From a virus, in the IMG/VR virus record IMGVR_UViG_3300005538_000007, positions 1 through 35,949 of that record: a stretch of 35,949 nucleotides of DNA; one strand, written 5' to 3'. This document shows, in pieces, positions 64 to 30,126 of the stretch. The notes under the pieces were generated by a model, which saw only the letters and a list, made by a program, of their open reading frames with translations, searched no databases and was not told where the DNA came from. The translations under genes and the position numbers were made by a program. Every line of letters begins with the position of its first letter. Positions within the stretch are counted from its first letter, which is position 1.

Positions 64-1026
64 ATGCTCGGCGACAAGGACGACGTCTCCGCCTACATGC
101 CGTGGTGGCTCGGCGACTACCGCCGCGACACCGCCGACCTGAGCTGCCTTGAGCATGGCGCCTACCTGCAGCTCCTCGCCGAGCTGTGGCTGGCGCGCGG
201 TTACCTCAGCTACGACCCCGAGCGGCTGGCGCGGCGGATCCACCTCGACCCCACCCTGTGGGCGCCGGTGTGGAAGGCGATCGAGCGCTTCTTCGACGTG
301 TTCGAGGGCCGCATCAGCCAGAAGCGGTTGCTGCGCGAGCTCGAGAAGGCCCGCCAGATGCGCGGGGTTCTGTCGCGCGCCGGCAAGAGAGGCGCCGCGG
401 CGAAGTGGGGCCATGCCGCAACGAAGGATGGCCAGGCTATAGCCAGGCCAATGGCGGAAGGATGGCAATCATCACCATCACCAGATCCAGATCAGACAGG
501 AAGAGGAGAAGACTCCTCTTCCTCCCCCGCGCCCGCTCCGCGAGCGACGGGGGCGGCTGACGAAGCCGAGGCTCTTTTACTTTTCCCGGTCGTTCGGGGC
601 AGGCGGTCGAATGCACAGGAATGGCGCTTCACGGAGGCCGAGGCCACGGTGCTCCGCGAGGGCTTTCCCCATCTCGACGTGATCTCCGAAGCGAGAAAAG
701 CATGGGCCTGGATCGTCGCCAAACCGGAGCGCCGCAAGACCGCCAAGGGGATGCTGCCATTCCTCGTCGGCTGGCTCGGGCGGGCTCAGAACCGAGGCGG
801 GGCGCGTACCGGTCCACCGGCGGCTCCGCAGTGCGCATTCCACCGGGAGGTACCGGACAAACCGGCCACCGAAGTGGATCGCAACTGCCCGACGTGCAAA
901 GCACTCGGGACTCGGCGACGCGAGAAGAAAGCCGCCGGCGCCGAGCCGGAGGACATCGCGGCCATCATGGCGACCACCATGGCGACCTGGCCGCAGAGGG
1001 AGGCAGGTGAAAAAGCGCATCGCTGA
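64..1026 (+). CDS. DUF1376-family phage replication-type protein
   Basis: A 320-residue protein. Residues about 10-105 match the DUF1376 pattern: an early YMPWWLGDYRRDT motif, then LEHGAYLQLL and a conserved W-x-P helix, followed by a basic RAGKRGAAAKWG stretch. DUF1376 proteins sit in phage replication modules and are often compared to primosomal or O-type initiators; a biochemical role is not established. The C-terminus has a zinc-ribbon-like CxxH...CxxC near residues 258-285. The middle is Ser/Pro/Asp-rich and probably flexible. The start is chosen because family members begin a few residues before the YMP motif. On the circular map it follows the early operon, so it is probably its penultimate region. 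Confidence 0.8.
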   Translation: MLGDKDDVSAYMPWWLGDYRRDTADLSCLEHGAYLQLLAELWLARGYLSYDPERLARRIHLDPTLWAPVWKAIERFFDVFEGRISQKRLLRELEKARQMRGVLSRAGKRGAAAKWGHAATKDGQAIARPMAEGWQSSPSPDPDQTGRGEDSSSSPAPAPRATGAADEAEALLLFPVVRGRRSNAQEWRFTEAEATVLREGFPHLDVISEARKAWAWIVAKPERRKTAKGMLPFLVGWLGRAQNRGGARTGPPAAPQCAFHREVPDKPATEVDRNCPTCKALGTRRREKKAAGAEPEDIAAIMATTMATWPQREAGEKAHR

Positions 1027-2766: not shown

Positions 2767-3008
2767 TCCGCGTCTCGCAGGTCAAGCTGAACGTCAGCCG
2801 GAACCTCGCCGGGCGTGGCCTGAGCCAGGTCCTCAGGGAGCCCGGCATGTACGTCGCGGAGGGCTGCGTCATCCTGCCCCGCACCCCCGGCCTCGCCATC
2901 CCGCTGCACCTCGTCGACGTGTGCGAGCTGGCAGAGGCGGAGGCTGCGCATGATCCCGGTCCGGTGGTTCAAGGGCGCGGTTCAGGGCGGCCCGGCAAGG
3001 CGCGATGA
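2763..3008 (+). CDS. Hypothetical protein, 81 aa, overlapping the terminase start
   Basis: Starts MIRVSQVKLNVSRNLAGRGL at an ATG overlapping the previous tiny frame. The first 60 residues look like an ordinary small beta-rich domain (...MYVAEGCVILPRTPGLAIPL). The last 20 are Gly/Arg-rich and lie in the 59-base overlap with the large-terminase gene, so they may be tolerated read-through rather than selected sequence. No family is recognised. The compact position suggests a packaging or head accessory protein. Confidence 0.55.
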   Translation: MIRVSQVKLNVSRNLAGRGLSQVLREPGMYVAEGCVILPRTPGLAIPLHLVDVCELAEAEAAHDPGPVVQGRGSGRPGKAR

Positions 3009-4314
3009 CAGACGACGTGCCCCCTTCGACCCGCGGCCGCTGCTCTTCCCGGCTCAGATCGCCGCGGTCTATGACCCGGCCCGCTGGCAGGCGTGGCCGG
3101 GCGGGCGCCAGGGCGGCAAGACCGACGGCCTCGAGAAGCTGCTCCTGCGCGTCGCCTCCGAGCGCAAGGGCCAGCTCGCGATCTACGTCAGCACCAGCAA
3201 GAAGCGCGCGGTCGCGACCATCTGGGACGAGCTCGTCACCCTCAACGCCGACTGCGGCCTGGGCGGCCGGGCGCGCGGCCACACGCTGCGCTTCCCCGGC
3301 GCCGGCGCCCTGGTCGTCACTGGCGTCGAGAACCGCCGCATGGCCAACGATCTGCGCGGGCGCAAGAAGGTCGCGCTCTACTGCCTCGACGAGGCCCAGG
3401 ACTGGCCCGACGAGCTCCTGCGCTACTTCTACGAGGCCGTCGTGTTCCCGTCGCTGTCAGCGGTCGGCGGCGCGGTGGTCGTGGCCGGCACCGGCGGGCC
3501 GCCGCGCGGCTTCTGGCACGAGGTCGCGACCAGCAAGCCCGAGTGGAGCCGCCACCGCTTCACCCCCCTCGGCAACCCGTTCCTGGTCGCCGGCGAGGCC
3601 CGCCGTCTCATCGACAAGGCGTGCGCCGATCGCGGGGTCGACGAGAGCGACCCCAGCATCCGGCGCGAGTTCTTCGCCGAATTCGTCAACGATGCCAACC
3701 GGCAGATCTTCCCGGTCAGCGACGCCAACCTCTACGACGCCGGCGAGCGGCCCGCGGGCAAGTGGTCGTTCGTCATCGCCTCGGACTTCGGCACTGTCGA
3801 CGCCGCGGCGGTCGTCGTGTGGGGCTGGACGTCCGCCAGTCCTCACCTGTGGGTCATCGAGACCGAGAAGCAGCACGCCCTCGGCGCCAGCGCCCAGGTC
3901 GCCCTCGTGCGCGCGGTGGCGGCCCGCTACAGCGGGCGCGGCCTGGTCGGCATTGTGGGCGATCCGGGCGGGGGAGGCGCGGGCCTGATGGTCGACCTGC
4001 GCCAGGAGCACCTCATCGGCATGGAAGCGGCCGAGAAGGCGGGCAAGGCCGCGGCCTGCATCGTCCTGCGCGACGGCCTGCGCTCGGGCAAGGTCAAGAT
4101 CCCGCGGGCCGAGCGCGAGTTCGTCGAGGAGCTGCGCACGCCCGAGTGGGATCCCGACGCCATCGGCAGCGTCATCCGCGGGCACATGCCCGACCGGGTG
4201 GACGCCGCGCTCTACGGCTACCGCAAGGCCGTGGGCATGCACCACTGGAAGGCGCCGGCGACGGAGCCGCAGAAGAGCGACCTGCACAAGGAGCTCGAAA
4301 GGAAGCTGTCATGA
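2950..4314 (+). CDS. terL: Terminase large subunit (ATPase-nuclease)
   Basis: The packaging motor that pumps phage DNA into the prohead and cuts concatemers. The 454 residues carry the full set of motifs: Walker A GGRQGGKT (51-58), Walker B VALYCLDEAQD (141-151), a coupling motif VVVAGTG (176-182), then the nuclease domain with acidic ASDFG (around 279), VGDPGGGG (around 338) and a final MPDRVDAALYGY (413-423). Length is typical. GGAGG lies about seven bases before the ATG, favouring this start despite the 59-base overlap with the previous gene. Its stop overlaps the next ATG (ATGA). Confidence 0.93.
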   Translation: MIPVRWFKGAVQGGPARRDDRRRAPFDPRPLLFPAQIAAVYDPARWQAWPGGRQGGKTDGLEKLLLRVASERKGQLAIYVSTSKKRAVATIWDELVTLNADCGLGGRARGHTLRFPGAGALVVTGVENRRMANDLRGRKKVALYCLDEAQDWPDELLRYFYEAVVFPSLSAVGGAVVVAGTGGPPRGFWHEVATSKPEWSRHRFTPLGNPFLVAGEARRLIDKACADRGVDESDPSIRREFFAEFVNDANRQIFPVSDANLYDAGERPAGKWSFVIASDFGTVDAAAVVVWGWTSASPHLWVIETEKQHALGASAQVALVRAVAARYSGRGLVGIVGDPGGGGAGLMVDLRQEHLIGMEAAEKAGKAAACIVLRDGLRSGKVKIPRAEREFVEELRTPEWDPDAIGSVIRGHMPDRVDAALYGYRKAVGMHHWKAPATEPQKSDLHKELERKLS

Positions 4315-8092: not shown

Positions 8093-9355
8093 ATGGCTGG
8101 TTTCGATCTCACCCGCGCTGCAGGGATCCTGAAGCGCGTCTACGACAAGAAGCTGCACGAGGTCCTCTACAGCGTCGACAACGCGAAGCTCAACCCAGGC
8201 TTCGTTGGCCTCAAGCGCGATTCCGGCAAGCGCGTGGTCACGCCGTTCGGCTCGGCCTACGCGGTGCCGATCAAGTACGGCCGCGTGTCGGCGAGCTCGG
8301 CCGACTACGCGACCGCGGAGACGCTGTCGGGGCAGGCCGACCAGGGCGCGGCGCCGAAGTACGCCCAGTTCCTCGTCACCCCGAGCACCTACTTCACGGT
8401 GCACCAGGTCGCGGGCGACACGCTCGATCGCGCGACCGACGAGGGCGCGTTCATCGACGCCGCCGCCGAGGTGGTCAAGGACGCCCTGGCCGCGCACATG
8501 CGCCGGCTCATGATCCACACCCACGGCACCGGCTCGGGCAAGGTCGCGACCATCACCGCGGCGCCGACCTCGACGACCATCACCATCGACCCGTCCGAGG
8601 TGCGCCGCTTCGAGATCGGCGACTGGATCGTGGCCGCCGCCGCCGAGGCCACGGGCTCGCTGCGCTCCGCGACCGCGGCGCAGGTCACCGGCCGCAACAG
8701 CGTGACCGGCGTGCTCACGCTCTCGATCGACGTCACTGCCCTGTCGTGGGCCAGCGGCGACTCGGTCTTCTTCAAGGGCGACCGCGCCGCGGCCGGCTTC
8801 ACCAACGTGTTCGCCGGCTACTTCGGCATCGTCGGCTCCTCGGCGCCGTCGGGCGGCGAGTCCTTCTTCGGTGTCGATCGCTCGGTCGACACCCGGCTCG
8901 GCGGCCTGCGCTACGACGCCACAGGCAAGGACATGGGCGAGATGCTGACCGAGGCGGCCATGCTCGCGGTCGGCGAGGGCGCCATGATCGCGCGCTGCCG
9001 GATGTCGACCAAGGACTACGGGTCCCTGGTCAAGGAGCGCGACGATCTCAAGCACATCGCCATCAACAGCGAGAACTCGACGCTCGGCTTCAAGGCCATC
9101 GAGTACGTCTCGCCGGTCGGGACCTTCCCGGTCCTGCTCGACGAGGGCATGCCGATCGGCCACGCCTTCCTCGAGACCGAGGACTGGCGGATGCTGTGCA
9201 AGGACGGCGAGCTCGCCACCATCGTCAGCCACGACGGCCTGGTGCTGCGCAAGGTGGCGGGGGCGGACGCCTACTCCTGCTACGTCAAGTCGATGATCCA
9301 GCCGGTCTGCGACCGGCCCGGTCACCAGGTCCACGTCTACAACGTCGGCTCGTAA
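8093..9355 (+). CDS. Major capsid protein
   Basis: 420 residues following the scaffold gene. It forms the icosahedral shell. It starts MAGFDLTRAAGILKRVYD and shows a helical arm (LHEVLYSVDNAKLNPGF), a beta-rich surface-loop region with many Thr/Val (around 155-220), and a C-terminal domain with WRMLCKDGELATIVSHDGL and a final QVHVYNVGS. The order scaffold, this gene, small acidic gene matches podovirus-like head modules. The assignment is from position, length and style. Codon use is highly GC-biased. Confidence 0.82.
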   Translation: MAGFDLTRAAGILKRVYDKKLHEVLYSVDNAKLNPGFVGLKRDSGKRVVTPFGSAYAVPIKYGRVSASSADYATAETLSGQADQGAAPKYAQFLVTPSTYFTVHQVAGDTLDRATDEGAFIDAAAEVVKDALAAHMRRLMIHTHGTGSGKVATITAAPTSTTITIDPSEVRRFEIGDWIVAAAAEATGSLRSATAAQVTGRNSVTGVLTLSIDVTALSWASGDSVFFKGDRAAAGFTNVFAGYFGIVGSSAPSGGESFFGVDRSVDTRLGGLRYDATGKDMGEMLTEAAMLAVGEGAMIARCRMSTKDYGSLVKERDDLKHIAINSENSTLGFKAIEYVSPVGTFPVLLDEGMPIGHAFLETEDWRMLCKDGELATIVSHDGLVLRKVAGADAYSCYVKSMIQPVCDRPGHQVHVYNVGS

Positions 9356-26548: not shown

Positions 26549-26779
26549 TCAGCCGCCCTCGAAGGCTTGCAGCGCCGCCTGCAGGTCTGCGATCAAGGCG
26601 CGCACCTCGTCCGGGCCGCCGATCACCCATTCATCGCACGAGTGGGGCAGGAACGCGGCCTGGCCTCTGACGACACCGCCCGACCGCGCATCGGGGACCC
26701 GGTGGGGCGGGTCGCAATCACAGTCGCGCCCTTGGCGGCAGGGCGGCATGAGCAGCTTGAGATCGCCGGGGCGGTACAT
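26549..26779 (-). CDS. Small conserved hypothetical protein, 76 aa
   Basis: Starts MYRPGDLKLLMPPCRQGRDC and contains HSCDEWVIGGPDEVRALIAD followed by LQAALQAFEGG. The C-D-E-W-x-I-G-G-x-x-x-x-R-A-L-I-A-D-L-Q segment is of a type found in short phage proteins. A CDCD pair near residue 20 may bind metal. It lies four bases upstream of the next minus-strand gene, in one operon. Start uncertain because no strong ribosome site is present. Confidence 0.65.
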   Translation of the reverse strand: MYRPGDLKLLMPPCRQGRDCDCDPPHRVPDARSGGVVRGQAAFLPHSCDEWVIGGPDEVRALIADLQAALQAFEGG

Positions 26780-26829
26780 CGAGCAGCCCCATTCTCCCCC
26801 TGGGGGCAGCGTGGGGGCAATGGGCCGGA

Positions 26830-27345
26830 CTACGGGACGTCCGCCAGGGGCTGCGCCTGGAACTGCCCTTGGGCGTCGAAGCAGCCCCACTGAATGGCCT
26901 CCATGGACAGCGCCGGCTGCGTGTCCCGCGCCAAGACGGCAGCGCCGGTGGCGTCCGCGAGCGTGAGGCTGTTGCCCTGCACCTGATACGTGTACACGTC
27001 CGGGGCGTGGTTGGGGTCGCCGGCCGGGCAGCTCGTCTTGGTGGGCGTCGTCGCGATCTGATTGGCCGTGACCTGGTAGGTTCCGATCTCCATCTCGTCC
27101 TCGGCGGCCGTCGACGAGATCAGGCAGAGGTTCTGCGTCGCATAGGTGCCGTCGGCGCTGAAGGTCGCCGCGATTCCGCAGGCACCGTTGTCGCTCAGCA
27201 CGGCGTACCAGGTCCCGATCAGAGCAGAGGGCGGCGCCGCGGTCGTTGTCATCTCGGTCGGCGTCGGCGCGGGCGAGTCCTCCGAGGACGGTGGCGATGA
27301 GCAGGCGGCGAAGGCACAGAGCAGGGGGAGCAGCTTCCACTTCAT
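26830..27345 (-). CDS. Lipoprotein, candidate lysogenic-conversion product
   Basis: 171 residues from the chosen ATG; an in-frame ATG at 27357 would add four. MKWKLLPLLCAFAACSS is a lipoprotein signal with Cys15, then a Ser/Pro/Thr linker and a beta-rich domain: GTWYAVLSDNGACGIAATFS, then ADGTYATQ, EIGTYQVTANQIATT and VQGNSLTLADATGA. The GTW...F..DGTY...G.Y.......G..L pattern is that of small lipocalin-like bacterial lipoproteins. Phages rarely need such a protein in the virion, so surface modification of the lysogen is the likeliest use. A promoter lies upstream. Confidence 0.72.
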   Translation of the reverse strand: MKWKLLPLLCAFAACSSPPSSEDSPAPTPTEMTTTAAPPSALIGTWYAVLSDNGACGIAATFSADGTYATQNLCLISSTAAEDEMEIGTYQVTANQIATTPTKTSCPAGDPNHAPDVYTYQVQGNSLTLADATGAAVLARDTQPALSMEAIQWGCFDAQGQFQAQPLADVP

Positions 27346-27376
27346 GCCCAAGGTCATCGGCAGCGCCGTCCGATTT

Positions 27377-27415
27377 TGTGAACACACTAGACGCCGCGTC
27401 CGCTTCGCAAGACAA
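27377..27415 (-). promoter_or_regulatory. Candidate promoter of the minus-strand lipoprotein operon, with operator-like half-site
   Basis: On the minus strand TTGTCT (27415-27410), 18 bases, TCTAGT (27391-27386). TGTGAACACAC at 27377-27387 overlaps the -10 end and differs by one base from the half-site TGTGAAGACAC found at the early promoter. If real, the lipoprotein operon would share control with the lysogeny switch. The rest of 27416-27522 has no gene but holds inverse or degenerate copies of the integrase-arm-like repeat. Confidence 0.4.
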
Positions 27416-27522
27416 CGCCCGCTCCGAGCATCGTTCAGCAGCGATCTGCGAACCGCTGCGCACACTTGCCGACGACGGTGGAACGGACAGGTGGGCAACC
27501 CTATGAGATCGCACGACTTCCA

Positions 27523-27579
27523 CTAGCTTGAGGTGCTAGCGGAAGCAATTCCATCGGGGTTCAAATCCCCGTCCTCGCA
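27523..27579 (+). other. attP: attP core: 3' half of tRNA-Leu(GAG)
   Basis: The sequence folds as the tRNA 3' half only: anticodon arm CTAGCTTGAGGTGCTAG (27523-27539) with anticodon GAG at 27530-27532, a long variable arm GGAA/TTCC, a T arm CGGGGTTCAAATCCCCG (27555-27571), acceptor strand TCCTCGC and discriminator A. No D arm or 5' acceptor strand lies upstream, so it is not a functional tRNA. A long variable arm and the GAG anticodon identify tRNA-Leu. Integrases commonly use tRNA 3' ends, and insertion here would restore the host gene. The integrase gene lies 104 bases away. Confidence 0.88.
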
Positions 27580-27606
27580 CAGCTTTTCGACTGACGCGCT
27601 GACCCC

Positions 27607-27636
27607 GCGGAACGGCTGCGGAACGATGGCGGAACG
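27607..27636. repeat. Three GCGGAACG repeats at 11-bp spacing
   Basis: GCGGAACG occurs at 27607-27614, 27618-27625 and 27629-27636, exactly one helical turn apart, so three bound proteins would lie on one face of DNA. The array sits between the attP core and the integrase gene, where integrase arm-binding or excisionase sites are expected. Related copies lie on the other side of attP: GTGGAACG at 27478-27485 and an inverted GCATCGTTCAGC at 27428-27439. Confidence 0.7.
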
Positions 27637-27682
27637 ATGGTTGTGCGGTGCTCGCCCGAGAGCGTGTCCAGCGCGACGGACA

Positions 27683-28837
27683 TCAAGGGTCATGCTTCTT
27701 CCCGCCCTTGAGCGCCTTGAGGAGCTTGCGCTGACGAGCGCGCGCGATCGCCTCGGCCGTGATGTACGAGCCCTCGGTCACCGCGGAGCCGTGGTCATGG
27801 CCGGCCTGCTGCTGGATCGTCGCGAGCGTCCGGCCGTCGATCAGCTCGAGCGACATCGAGACCCCGCGCATGCCGTGCGCGTGCGTGTCCTCGGGCACGC
27901 CGGCGGCCCGGCAGATCCGCTTCACCTGCTGGGCCACCCAGTAGCGATCGCGGTGGCCGGTCACTCGCCGCCGCTCGGCCGGGAACAGCCAGTCATCGGG
28001 CGCGAGGCCATGCGCAAGGCTGGCCAGCACGGGCCGCAGGCGCTCGTCCTCCACGGGGATCAGCTCGGGGTGGCGCTTCTTGCGATTCTGCGGCCCCGTG
28101 CGCGGAACGCGCAGGAGCGCGCCGTTCATGTCCACGTGCTTCGCCTGCCGATCGACGATCTTCGATGCGCGCAGAGAGAGCTTGAACGCGATGAGGCTGG
28201 CAGCCGCGCCGCGATCGCCCGCCTCGGCCAGGTCGAACGCCTTCCGCTCCCAGATCGCCAGATGGTCGAAGCTGAGCTGCTTCATCCCCTTGCCGCCGGG
28301 GTTGCGCTGGCCGATGCTCTCGGGCTCGGGCCTCCAGCCGTCGAGCGGGTTCGCGCGGATCCAGCGCTGGCGGACGCAGTAGGTGAGAAACTTGCGCGCG
28401 ACCGAGAGCGTGTTCAGCGCCGTGTCCGGCGCCTGGCGCGCGGCCAGCTCGGCGAACAGGCGTTCGCAGTGGGGCAGGTCGATCGCTGACACCGGCGCGG
28501 ATAGCGACCCGCGGAAGAACGCGCGCAGGCGGAACAGGTTCGTGCGAATGGTGCCGCCGGTGAGCGCCTTGACGTGATCGCGCTCGTAAGCAAGCAGTGC
28601 TTCCTCGACAGTGACACCGGCGTTGAGCTTCGCGCGCGAGTTGAAGTCGACGATGAATTGCTCGGCCTCGGCGCGCGCGGCGGCCTCGTCCGCGGGCCCG
28701 GTGAACGGAAAGGAGAACGTCTCGCGGCCACGGCTGCCGACCACTTCGGCCGGTACGATCACGACACGGTAGTGGGGCTTGCGGCGGACGTCCCGGTACG
28801 GCCCGAGGGCCCGATCGGTCGGGTTGCGCCGGGCCAT
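27683..28837 (-). CDS. int: Tyrosine integrase
   Basis: 384 residues; catalyses integration at and excision from the attP core nearby. The catalytic set is visible: R223 (SLRASKI), Lys near 253 (NRKKRHPEL), H321-x-x-R324 (HAHGMRG), H347 (AGHDHG) and the nucleophile Y358 (EGSYIT). The N-terminal region (about 75-165) has the SAM-like core-binding domain (VTVEEALLAYERDHV, LNTLSVARKFLTYCVRQRW). The start ATG overlaps the stop of the small upstream gene as ATGA, so both come from one mRNA. Length is typical. Confidence 0.93.
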   Translation of the reverse strand: MARRNPTDRALGPYRDVRRKPHYRVVIVPAEVVGSRGRETFSFPFTGPADEAAARAEAEQFIVDFNSRAKLNAGVTVEEALLAYERDHVKALTGGTIRTNLFRLRAFFRGSLSAPVSAIDLPHCERLFAELAARQAPDTALNTLSVARKFLTYCVRQRWIRANPLDGWRPEPESIGQRNPGGKGMKQLSFDHLAIWERKAFDLAEAGDRGAAASLIAFKLSLRASKIVDRQAKHVDMNGALLRVPRTGPQNRKKRHPELIPVEDERLRPVLASLAHGLAPDDWLFPAERRRVTGHRDRYWVAQQVKRICRAAGVPEDTHAHGMRGVSMSLELIDGRTLATIQQQAGHDHGSAVTEGSYITAEAIARARQRKLLKALKGGKKHDP

Positions 28838-29064
28838 CAGCCGGCTCGTCGGCCGCGGTTGAGGCGCACGCGCCGCAGAGCCTCGGCCGCCTTGGCGCTC
28901 GCTCCCTCGAGATCGGGCGCGCGGCCTGGCGTCGCCGACGGCGCCGCCTCATCGCGCTCCAGCTCGTCGAGGAGCCGTCGGAGGATGCGGGCGGGATCGC
29001 GCCGGTGCATCTCCTCGCGAAGCGCGGCTAGCTCGGCCTCGAGCTGTTCGATCGTGCTCGCCAC
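28837..29064 (-). CDS. Small coiled-coil protein co-transcribed with the integrase
   Basis: 75 residues from GTG 29064: MASTIEQLEAELAALREEMH, then RRDPARILRRLLDELERDEA, an Ala/Pro linker and a basic tail RVRLNRGRRAG. It is a short coiled coil with an Arg-rich end. Position directly before int and size would suit a recombination directionality factor or integrase partner, but no family is recognised. An upstream extension to 29169 is unlikely because it would run through the promoter and operator. No ribosome site is present; the -10 box placement implies leaderless mRNA. Confidence 0.6.
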   Translation of the reverse strand: MASTIEQLEAELAALREEMHRRDPARILRRLLDELERDEAAPSATPGRAPDLEGASAKAAEALRRVRLNRGRRAG

Positions 29065-29100
29065 TGTGACGACATTACCGGGTGTCTTCACGGGCGGCAA
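29065..29100 (-). promoter_or_regulatory. Leftward integrase promoter overlapped by a dyad operator
   Basis: On the minus strand TTGCCG (29100-29095), exactly 17 bases, TAATGT (29077-29072), then seven bases to GTG 29064. Overlapping it is TGTGACGACA (29065-29074), an 8-base spacer and TGTCTTCACG (29083-29092), an inverted repeat with the same half-site and spacer length as the early-promoter operator. A bound protein would cover the -10 box and spacer and so block the integrase transcript. Confidence 0.68.
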
Positions 29101-29173
29101 GGACGAAGCAGCGGACGCGACCGGATTCGCTCGCGGTCCCGCGGCTGTCCAGTCCCCAGCGCTGTGCATTTTG

Positions 29174-29206
29174 TGTCTTCACGCCAGCCGCGTCACGAGA
29201 TATGGT
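29174..29206 (+). promoter_or_regulatory. Candidate rightward promoter with operator half-site
   Basis: TTCACG (29178-29183), 17 bases, TATGGT (29201-29206), followed by a GGGGGAGG ribosome site and the ATG at 29227. The -35 box is part of TGTCTTCACG (29174-29183), identical to the right half-site of the integrase operator; no matching left half-site is seen. Autoregulation of the regulatory-region genes downstream is a possible reading. Confidence 0.45.
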
Positions 29207-29226
29207 CCGTCCGGGGGAGGCGTCGC

Positions 29227-29439
29227 ATGCCGAAGTGGCCTCAGAGGGCGCCCGCGCGCCGAGCAGACCCGCACCGAGAAAGCATCATCACGACCGCGAC
29301 TGGCCTGCTGCGCGCACGCGCCGGGCAGCTCATGGAAAAGGCCGAGGAGAAGTGCCGGGCGGCGAGGCTCTGGGAGGCATATGCGGACCGATGCGAGTCG
29401 AACCTGAACGGACGCGCACGCAGGCGCGCGGGGTCTTAA
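29227..29439 (+). CDS. Small helical protein of the regulatory region, 70 aa
   Basis: ATG chosen for the excellent GGGGGAGG seven bases upstream. The product is basic with a central helix: TTATGLLRARAGQLMEKAEE, KCRAARLWEAYADRC, and an Arg-rich end (GRARRRAGS). The pattern A-x-x-L-x-x-x-A-E...A-x-L-x-x-A-Y-A recurs in the N-terminus of the next gene product, suggesting duplication. No family is recognised. Its place between the integrase and early promoters implies a regulatory role. Confidence 0.58.
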   Translation: MPKWPQRAPARRADPHRESIITTATGLLRARAGQLMEKAEEKCRAARLWEAYADRCESNLNGRARRRAGS

Positions 29440-29497
29440 GCGATTTTGCCGTCGCCTTGCCCCGGTCGGGCTGTGTAGTCTCCGCACCCGGGGTCCT

Positions 29498-30046
29498 TTG
29501 AAAAGGAGTAGGCCCAAGCCGAGACAGTCACGAGGACAGGAGACCCTGAGTTCCAAGCGCGCGCGGGCCAGAGAGGCCCGAAAGCGGGCGCAGCGGTTCT
29601 TGAAGCAGGCCGAAGACCTGAAGCGAGAGGCATCGCTGCTCCTGGCATACGCGGAAGAAGTCGAACGACTTGACGCGGAATCGGCGAAGGGGGGCTCAGC
29701 GCGTGAGGACACACCGCGGTTGCCGCCCGGTGAAAATACTGTCAACGTGGATGGTATGAACACGGAGTCCTGGCCTCACGCTCTCAAGATCGCCCACGGG
29801 CGAGCGGCCAAGGATCCGTTCGGCCGAGCGTGTGTACGCGCCGGTATGACGAAGGGCGAAGTGGTGGAGAAGGTGCGCCGGGAGCTGGGGCTCAAGCGGC
29901 TGCCAATGTCACAGATCTCGCAGGCCAGGGGTGGCACGAGACAGATCCGAAGCGACGTCGCCGAGGCGATCCATCGCCTGACGGGCTTTGCCGCGACCAA
30001 GGCGAACTGGCCTGGCGGCATCCGCGACGTGTCCCGCCGAGAATAG
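29498..30046 (+). CDS. HTH regulator, candidate phage repressor
   Basis: Up to 182 residues. The N-terminal part is a charged coil (RAQRFLKQAEDLKREASLLL, AYAEEVERL). The C-terminal part (about 105-175) reads like an XRE/Cro-type HTH: DPFGRACVRAGMTKGEVVEK, then LPMSQISQARGGTRQIRSDV and AIHRLTGFAATKANWPGG; the closing helix, LTG and WP ending are typical of small Cro/YdaS-like regulators. It lies just upstream of the operator at the early promoter. The start is uncertain: TTG 29498 gives the full frame, while ATG 29756 would give only the HTH half. Confidence 0.6.
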   Translation: MKRSRPKPRQSRGQETLSSKRARAREARKRAQRFLKQAEDLKREASLLLAYAEEVERLDAESAKGGSAREDTPRLPPGENTVNVDGMNTESWPHALKIAHGRAAKDPFGRACVRAGMTKGEVVEKVRRELGLKRLPMSQISQARGGTRQIRSDVAEAIHRLTGFAATKANWPGGIRDVSRRE

Positions 30047-30068
30047 GCCGGATTTTCACACGTGGCGG

Positions 30069-30126
30069 TGTCGTCACGATTTTCCTTGCCCGCTCTGTGA
30101 AGACACCATACGATGTCTTCACAGAG
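30069..30126 (+). promoter_or_regulatory. Early rightward promoter with perfect 13-bp dyad operator
   Basis: TTGCCC (30086-30091), 17 bases, TACGAT (30109-30114). Straddling the -10 box, CTCTGTGAAGACA (30093-30105) and TGTCTTCACAGAG (30114-30126) are perfect inverted repeats around an 8-base spacer. TGTCGTCAC at 30069-30077, one base off the half-site, lies just upstream of the -35 box. Binding would block polymerase and silence the whole early operon starting at 30156, as expected of a lysogeny operator. Confidence 0.75.

Follow-up and report, generated by a model that had tools for sequence, protein, structure and literature searches.

Does a single protein control both integration and the early genes of this phage? 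The question is raised by an inverted repeat, TGTGAAGACA-N8-TGTCTTCACA, that lies ahead of the integrase operon and again ahead of a rightward group of early genes. The window analysed was the entire viral record IMGVR_UViG_3300005538_000007 (35,949 bases), which by its sequence looks like a temperate phage; endolysin-like and RuvC-like genes were identified besides those in Table 1. The probable large terminase had no match among 50,697 phage records, which points to an isolated lineage. Scans of viral contigs, which reach close relatives only, found none for ORF-B, the integrase (Int), the terminase, one early protein and one protein encoded near the record end, while searches of phage and plasmid records returned remote integrase matches and insignificant matches only. 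An Rfam scan gave no relevant match.

Table 1. Features of the window discussed in the text. O_E and O_int are the dyads at the predicted early and integrase-operon promoters; promoter ranks are among 34 sigma-70-like matches, and half-site scores are matches to the 10-base half-site.
Feature	Position	Strand	Remarks
Primosomal-like protein	64-1026		
Large terminase (probable)	2950-4314		phrog_2 match among scanned ORFs
Major head protein	8093-9355		
Half-site TCTGACGACA	26666-26675	+	8/10; weak
Half-site TGTGAACACA	27377-27386	+	9/10; at predicted promoter of small lipoprotein-like gene
Fourth predicted promoter	27415-27386	-	reads to lipoprotein-like gene; touches half-site 27377-27386
Likely attP	27518-27579	+	3' half of tRNA-Leu(GAG); tRNA identity read by eye
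int, tyrosine integrase	27683-28837	-	
ORF2	28837-29064	-	opens the integrase operon; GTG start adjoining O_int; stop overlaps int start
O_int, putative operator	29065-29092		imperfect 10-8-10 dyad, TGTGACGACA-TTACCGGG-TGTCTTCACG; over predicted integrase-operon promoter
Predicted integrase-operon promoter	29072-29100	-	TTGCCG (29100-29095), N17, TAATGT (29077-29072); rank 7
Half-site CGTGAAGACA	29174-29183	-	9/10; holds -35 box of predicted ORF-A/ORF-B promoter
Predicted ORF-A/ORF-B promoter	29178-29206	+	TTCACG-N17-TATGGT; rank 4; -35 box inside half-site 29174-29183
ORF-A, 70 aa	29227-29439	+	ATG 29227; lacks HTH part; weakly resembles ORF-B N-terminal helix
ORF-B, 182 aa	29498-30046	+	candidate repressor; predicted to form a long helix at the N-terminus and an HTH-like bundle at the C-terminus; start uncertain
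Half-site CGTGAGGACA	29702-29711	+	8/10; within ORF-B
Weak terminator-like hairpin (30061-30078) and T-run	30061-30083	+	3' of ORF-B; 1 found, 2.0 expected in shuffles; z -0.94
Half-site CGTGACGACA	30069-30078	-	8/10; doubles as 3' arm of the hairpin
Predicted early promoter	30086-30114	+	TTGCCC (30086-30091), N17, TACGAT (30109-30114); rank 12
O_E, putative operator	30093-30126		perfect 13-8-13 dyad, CTCTGTGAAGACA-CCATACGA-TGTCTTCACAGAG; over predicted early promoter
First early gene, 57 aa	30156-30329	+	ATG 30156 with ribosome-binding site; downstream of O_E

The sequence-only reading had described a perfect dyad and a near copy with an equal 8-bp spacer, and both are present. O_int and O_E are identical at 18 of 20 core bases, and their spacers are equal in length but unrelated in sequence. 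At up to three mismatches these two sites were the sole matches in the record, and none occurred in 100 dinucleotide shuffles. Equally good sites scattered elsewhere in the record were thus not found, which favours the reading of the dyads as operators. With a matrix made from the four half-sites of O_E and O_int and a spacer of 8, O_E scored 38.3 bits and O_int 33.3, while the best score in 40 Markov sequences was 17.1, a gap that is partly built in because the matrix derives from these very half-sites. The exact dyad motif had zero matches in other viral contigs, and the three matches to a relaxed motif lay in unrelated DNA and were judged, on reading, to be due to chance. For the literal half-site decamer, the ten literature matches listed, out of 91, looked unrelated by title.

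Given the origin of the matrix, single half-sites that had not been used to build it provide a fairer test. All nine top half-sites of the record fall within positions 26666-30126. Five of them (at 29174, 27377, 30069, 26666 and 29702) were outside the matrix set, against 0.38 expected in this region, and none of 400 simulations of the region reached five, with the region's own composition as background and its limits chosen after the fact. Three of the five had been noted before and were recovered, and the two at 29702 and 26666 had been missed; the latter are the weaker ones and may be chance matches. The half-site at 30069-30078 should not be counted firmly either, since it also forms an arm of the weak terminator-like hairpin.

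Each dyad extends over the -10 box of promoter-like DNA, TACGAT in the case of O_E and TAATGT in that of O_int. Their location on such boxes had been proposed before, and the boxes and their 17-bp spacing hold up on inspection. As a stricter consensus scan at its threshold found no promoter in the record, all promoters named here are to be read as predictions. In the integrase operon just seven bases separate TAATGT from the in-frame GTG at 29064. The ORF2-int transcript would therefore be leaderless, starting at or beside this codon. Since the same dyad is found on the predicted int and early promoters, one DNA-binding protein probably switches both. This part of the earlier proposal is well supported, since a dyad of the same spacing lies on each -10 box and the top half-sites cluster in this region.

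The other part, which named ORF-B as the regulator, is plausible only. ORF-B sits between O_int and O_E and is the sole HTH-like candidate noticed near the dyads. In a structure model built without an alignment, a single long helix (residues 17-64, pLDDT mostly >90) is followed by a C-terminal helix bundle of moderate confidence. Residues 105-174 of this model showed weak structural similarity, at Z scores of about 2-3, to many XRE/Cro/CI and restriction-controller chains, among them the XRE/Cro/CI chains 5woq, 2cro, 5a7l and 3g5g (Z 2.6-3.2), with several unrelated chains scoring higher. Foldseek returned nothing significant for ORF-B (all E >0.5), and the C-terminal 97-residue piece was not folded when modelled alone (pLDDT 53). 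ORF-B had no relevant match in Pfam, NCBIfam, PHROG or PDB sequences, and a scan of 43 other and overlapping ORFs turned up no HTH family; absences from structure libraries were not counted as evidence. By its position and by the resemblance of its modelled fold, ORF-B is nevertheless the best candidate. We consider it probable, though well short of certain, that the dyads are operators of one phage-encoded repressor, most likely ORF-B, which would block the early and the integrase-operon promoters.

The integration region bears on other uses that the dyads might have. The inverted repeat TTCCACTAGC-TTGAGGT-GCTAGCGGAA at 27518-27544 surrounds the anticodon loop of the tRNA-Leu sequence, and this anticodon stem repeat is likely to be the core site of Int, with the loop as the likely 7-bp overlap of attP. 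ARAGORN found no complete tRNA and phage genes flank attP on both sides, so the record looks like the free phage form. The 3' end of the tRNA, used as a probe for the host, had no match in genomes or viral contigs. Three GCGGAACG-type repeats stand in tandem beside attP, at 27607-27640, with 11-bp intervals, and a related sequence in inverted orientation lies near 27429; these are possible integrase-arm or excisionase sites.

The 13-8-13 arrangement of O_E is the geometry of loxP, tyrosine recombinases bind inverted repeats of this kind, and the integrase gene is adjacent, so the dyads could be taken for recombinase sites. However, their spacers, CCATACGA and TTACCGGG, are not identical and O_E and O_int could thus not recombine together. 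Moreover, the likely Int core and the possible arm sites lie elsewhere and differ in sequence, only a single tyrosine recombinase was found, and both dyads are on -10 boxes, all of which makes recombination at the dyads highly improbable. The half-site at 27377-27386, about 130 bp from attP, could instead point to a dual excisionase and regulator that works on att as well as on the early promoters, and Apl of phage 186 is such a single protein with both roles (PMC7498355). The sites of Apl, however, are repeated in direct orientation at a distance of one helical turn (PMC7498355), a pattern unmatched by the present dyads, which are inverted and place their half-sites 18 bp apart, and the 11-bp tandem repeats beside attP, which are of another sequence, would suit an excisionase better; we regard an Apl-like role as very unlikely. 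We give hardly any credence to the view that the dyads act as RNA hairpins, in a terminator or leader structure, rather than as DNA operators. As RNA, O_E does fold strongly (-22.8 kcal/mol, z -5.7), but no T-run follows it, and pairing in O_int is broken by mismatches between its arms. In addition, the predicted start of transcription lies near the end of O_E, so that most of this dyad would lie outside the transcript.

A more serious possibility, though still an unlikely one, is that the operators are real while the protein that binds them is either a regulator of the host or another phage product, whether ORF-A, ORF2 or a protein so far unrecognised. The HTH likeness of ORF-B is weak, and some prophages are under the control of host repressors. 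Against a host regulator, the exact motif is absent from other viral contigs and its relaxed form gave only the three chance-like matches, which would be less expected if the regulator were widespread; the motif also shows no evident likeness to known LexA boxes. Against any protein other than ORF-B speaks the clustering of every good site around the int/ORF-B module.

If ORF-B is indeed a repressor of both promoters, its binding across the -10 boxes would block RNA polymerase at the early genes and at the integrase operon; repression, rather than activation, is what we infer. The perfect O_E would be bound tighter than the imperfect O_int. With this order of affinities, repressor accumulating after infection would shut down the early genes first, with integrase still being produced; in a lysogen, both promoters would be silent. 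Weaker autoregulation would come from the single half-site that overlies the predicted -35 box ahead of ORF-A and ORF-B. ORF-A and the ORF-B helix (29498-29700) were identical at 9 of 23 residues, with an E value of 0.004 in one comparison. If the helix is common to both proteins, with the HTH-like part belonging to ORF-B alone, ORF-A might be a truncated partner that mixes with the repressor by coiled-coil pairing and so lowers its affinity for widely spaced half-sites, the ORF-A/ORF-B ratio setting the timing of integration versus lytic growth, but this extension seems improbable. No relative of this temperate phage turned up in the collections searched, and the proposed scheme offers a concrete, testable circuit for its control, including a prediction of the protein that would set immunity.

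Control of several phage promoters by a single repressor is a well-known principle, and the switch proposed here would be of an ordinary, sensible kind. In the CI-Cro switches of lambda and 434, a divergent pair of repressor and early promoters is governed by triple operators. The present locus resembles these in its XRE-like HTH candidate regulator and in dyads that overlap promoters, here predicted ones. It differs from them in that there is no divergent promoter pair, ORF-B being co-oriented with the early genes, which counts against the proposed reading, and no triple operator; the site is longer (28 bp), and the predicted int promoter itself bears an operator.

The nearest tested system is that of mycobacteriophage BPs, in which the experimentally tested operators of gp33 consist of two ∼12-bp half-sites that are separated by 5 or 8 bp and located in the early promoter (PMC4557955). 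Several such operators occur at several BPs promoters, lone half-sites are bound more weakly, and the small HTH repressor is encoded beside int and attP, with the repressor and int sharing one promoter (PMC4557955). By analogy, and with no common protein family claimed, the present switch would work likewise: it has two half-sites with 8-bp spacing, overlap with predicted promoters, single half-sites and an HTH-like candidate near int and attP. In contrast, the BPs operator sequence, CGACATATGTCG, is unrelated to the present dyads, and many BPs half-sites are palindromic themselves, whereas the present ones are only loosely so (TGT-N4-ACA). Furthermore, int is here on the strand opposite to ORF-B. 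The stoperators of mycobacteriophages also serve one repressor at several sites; they are asymmetric and genome-wide (PMC9283540), whereas the sites found here are clustered within a 3.5-kb region, with dyads as the strong ones.

On the other side of attP, the adjoining lipoprotein-like gene (26830-27357, minus strand) has a predicted promoter of its own that touches a half-site, and this gene is possibly expressed in the lysogen.
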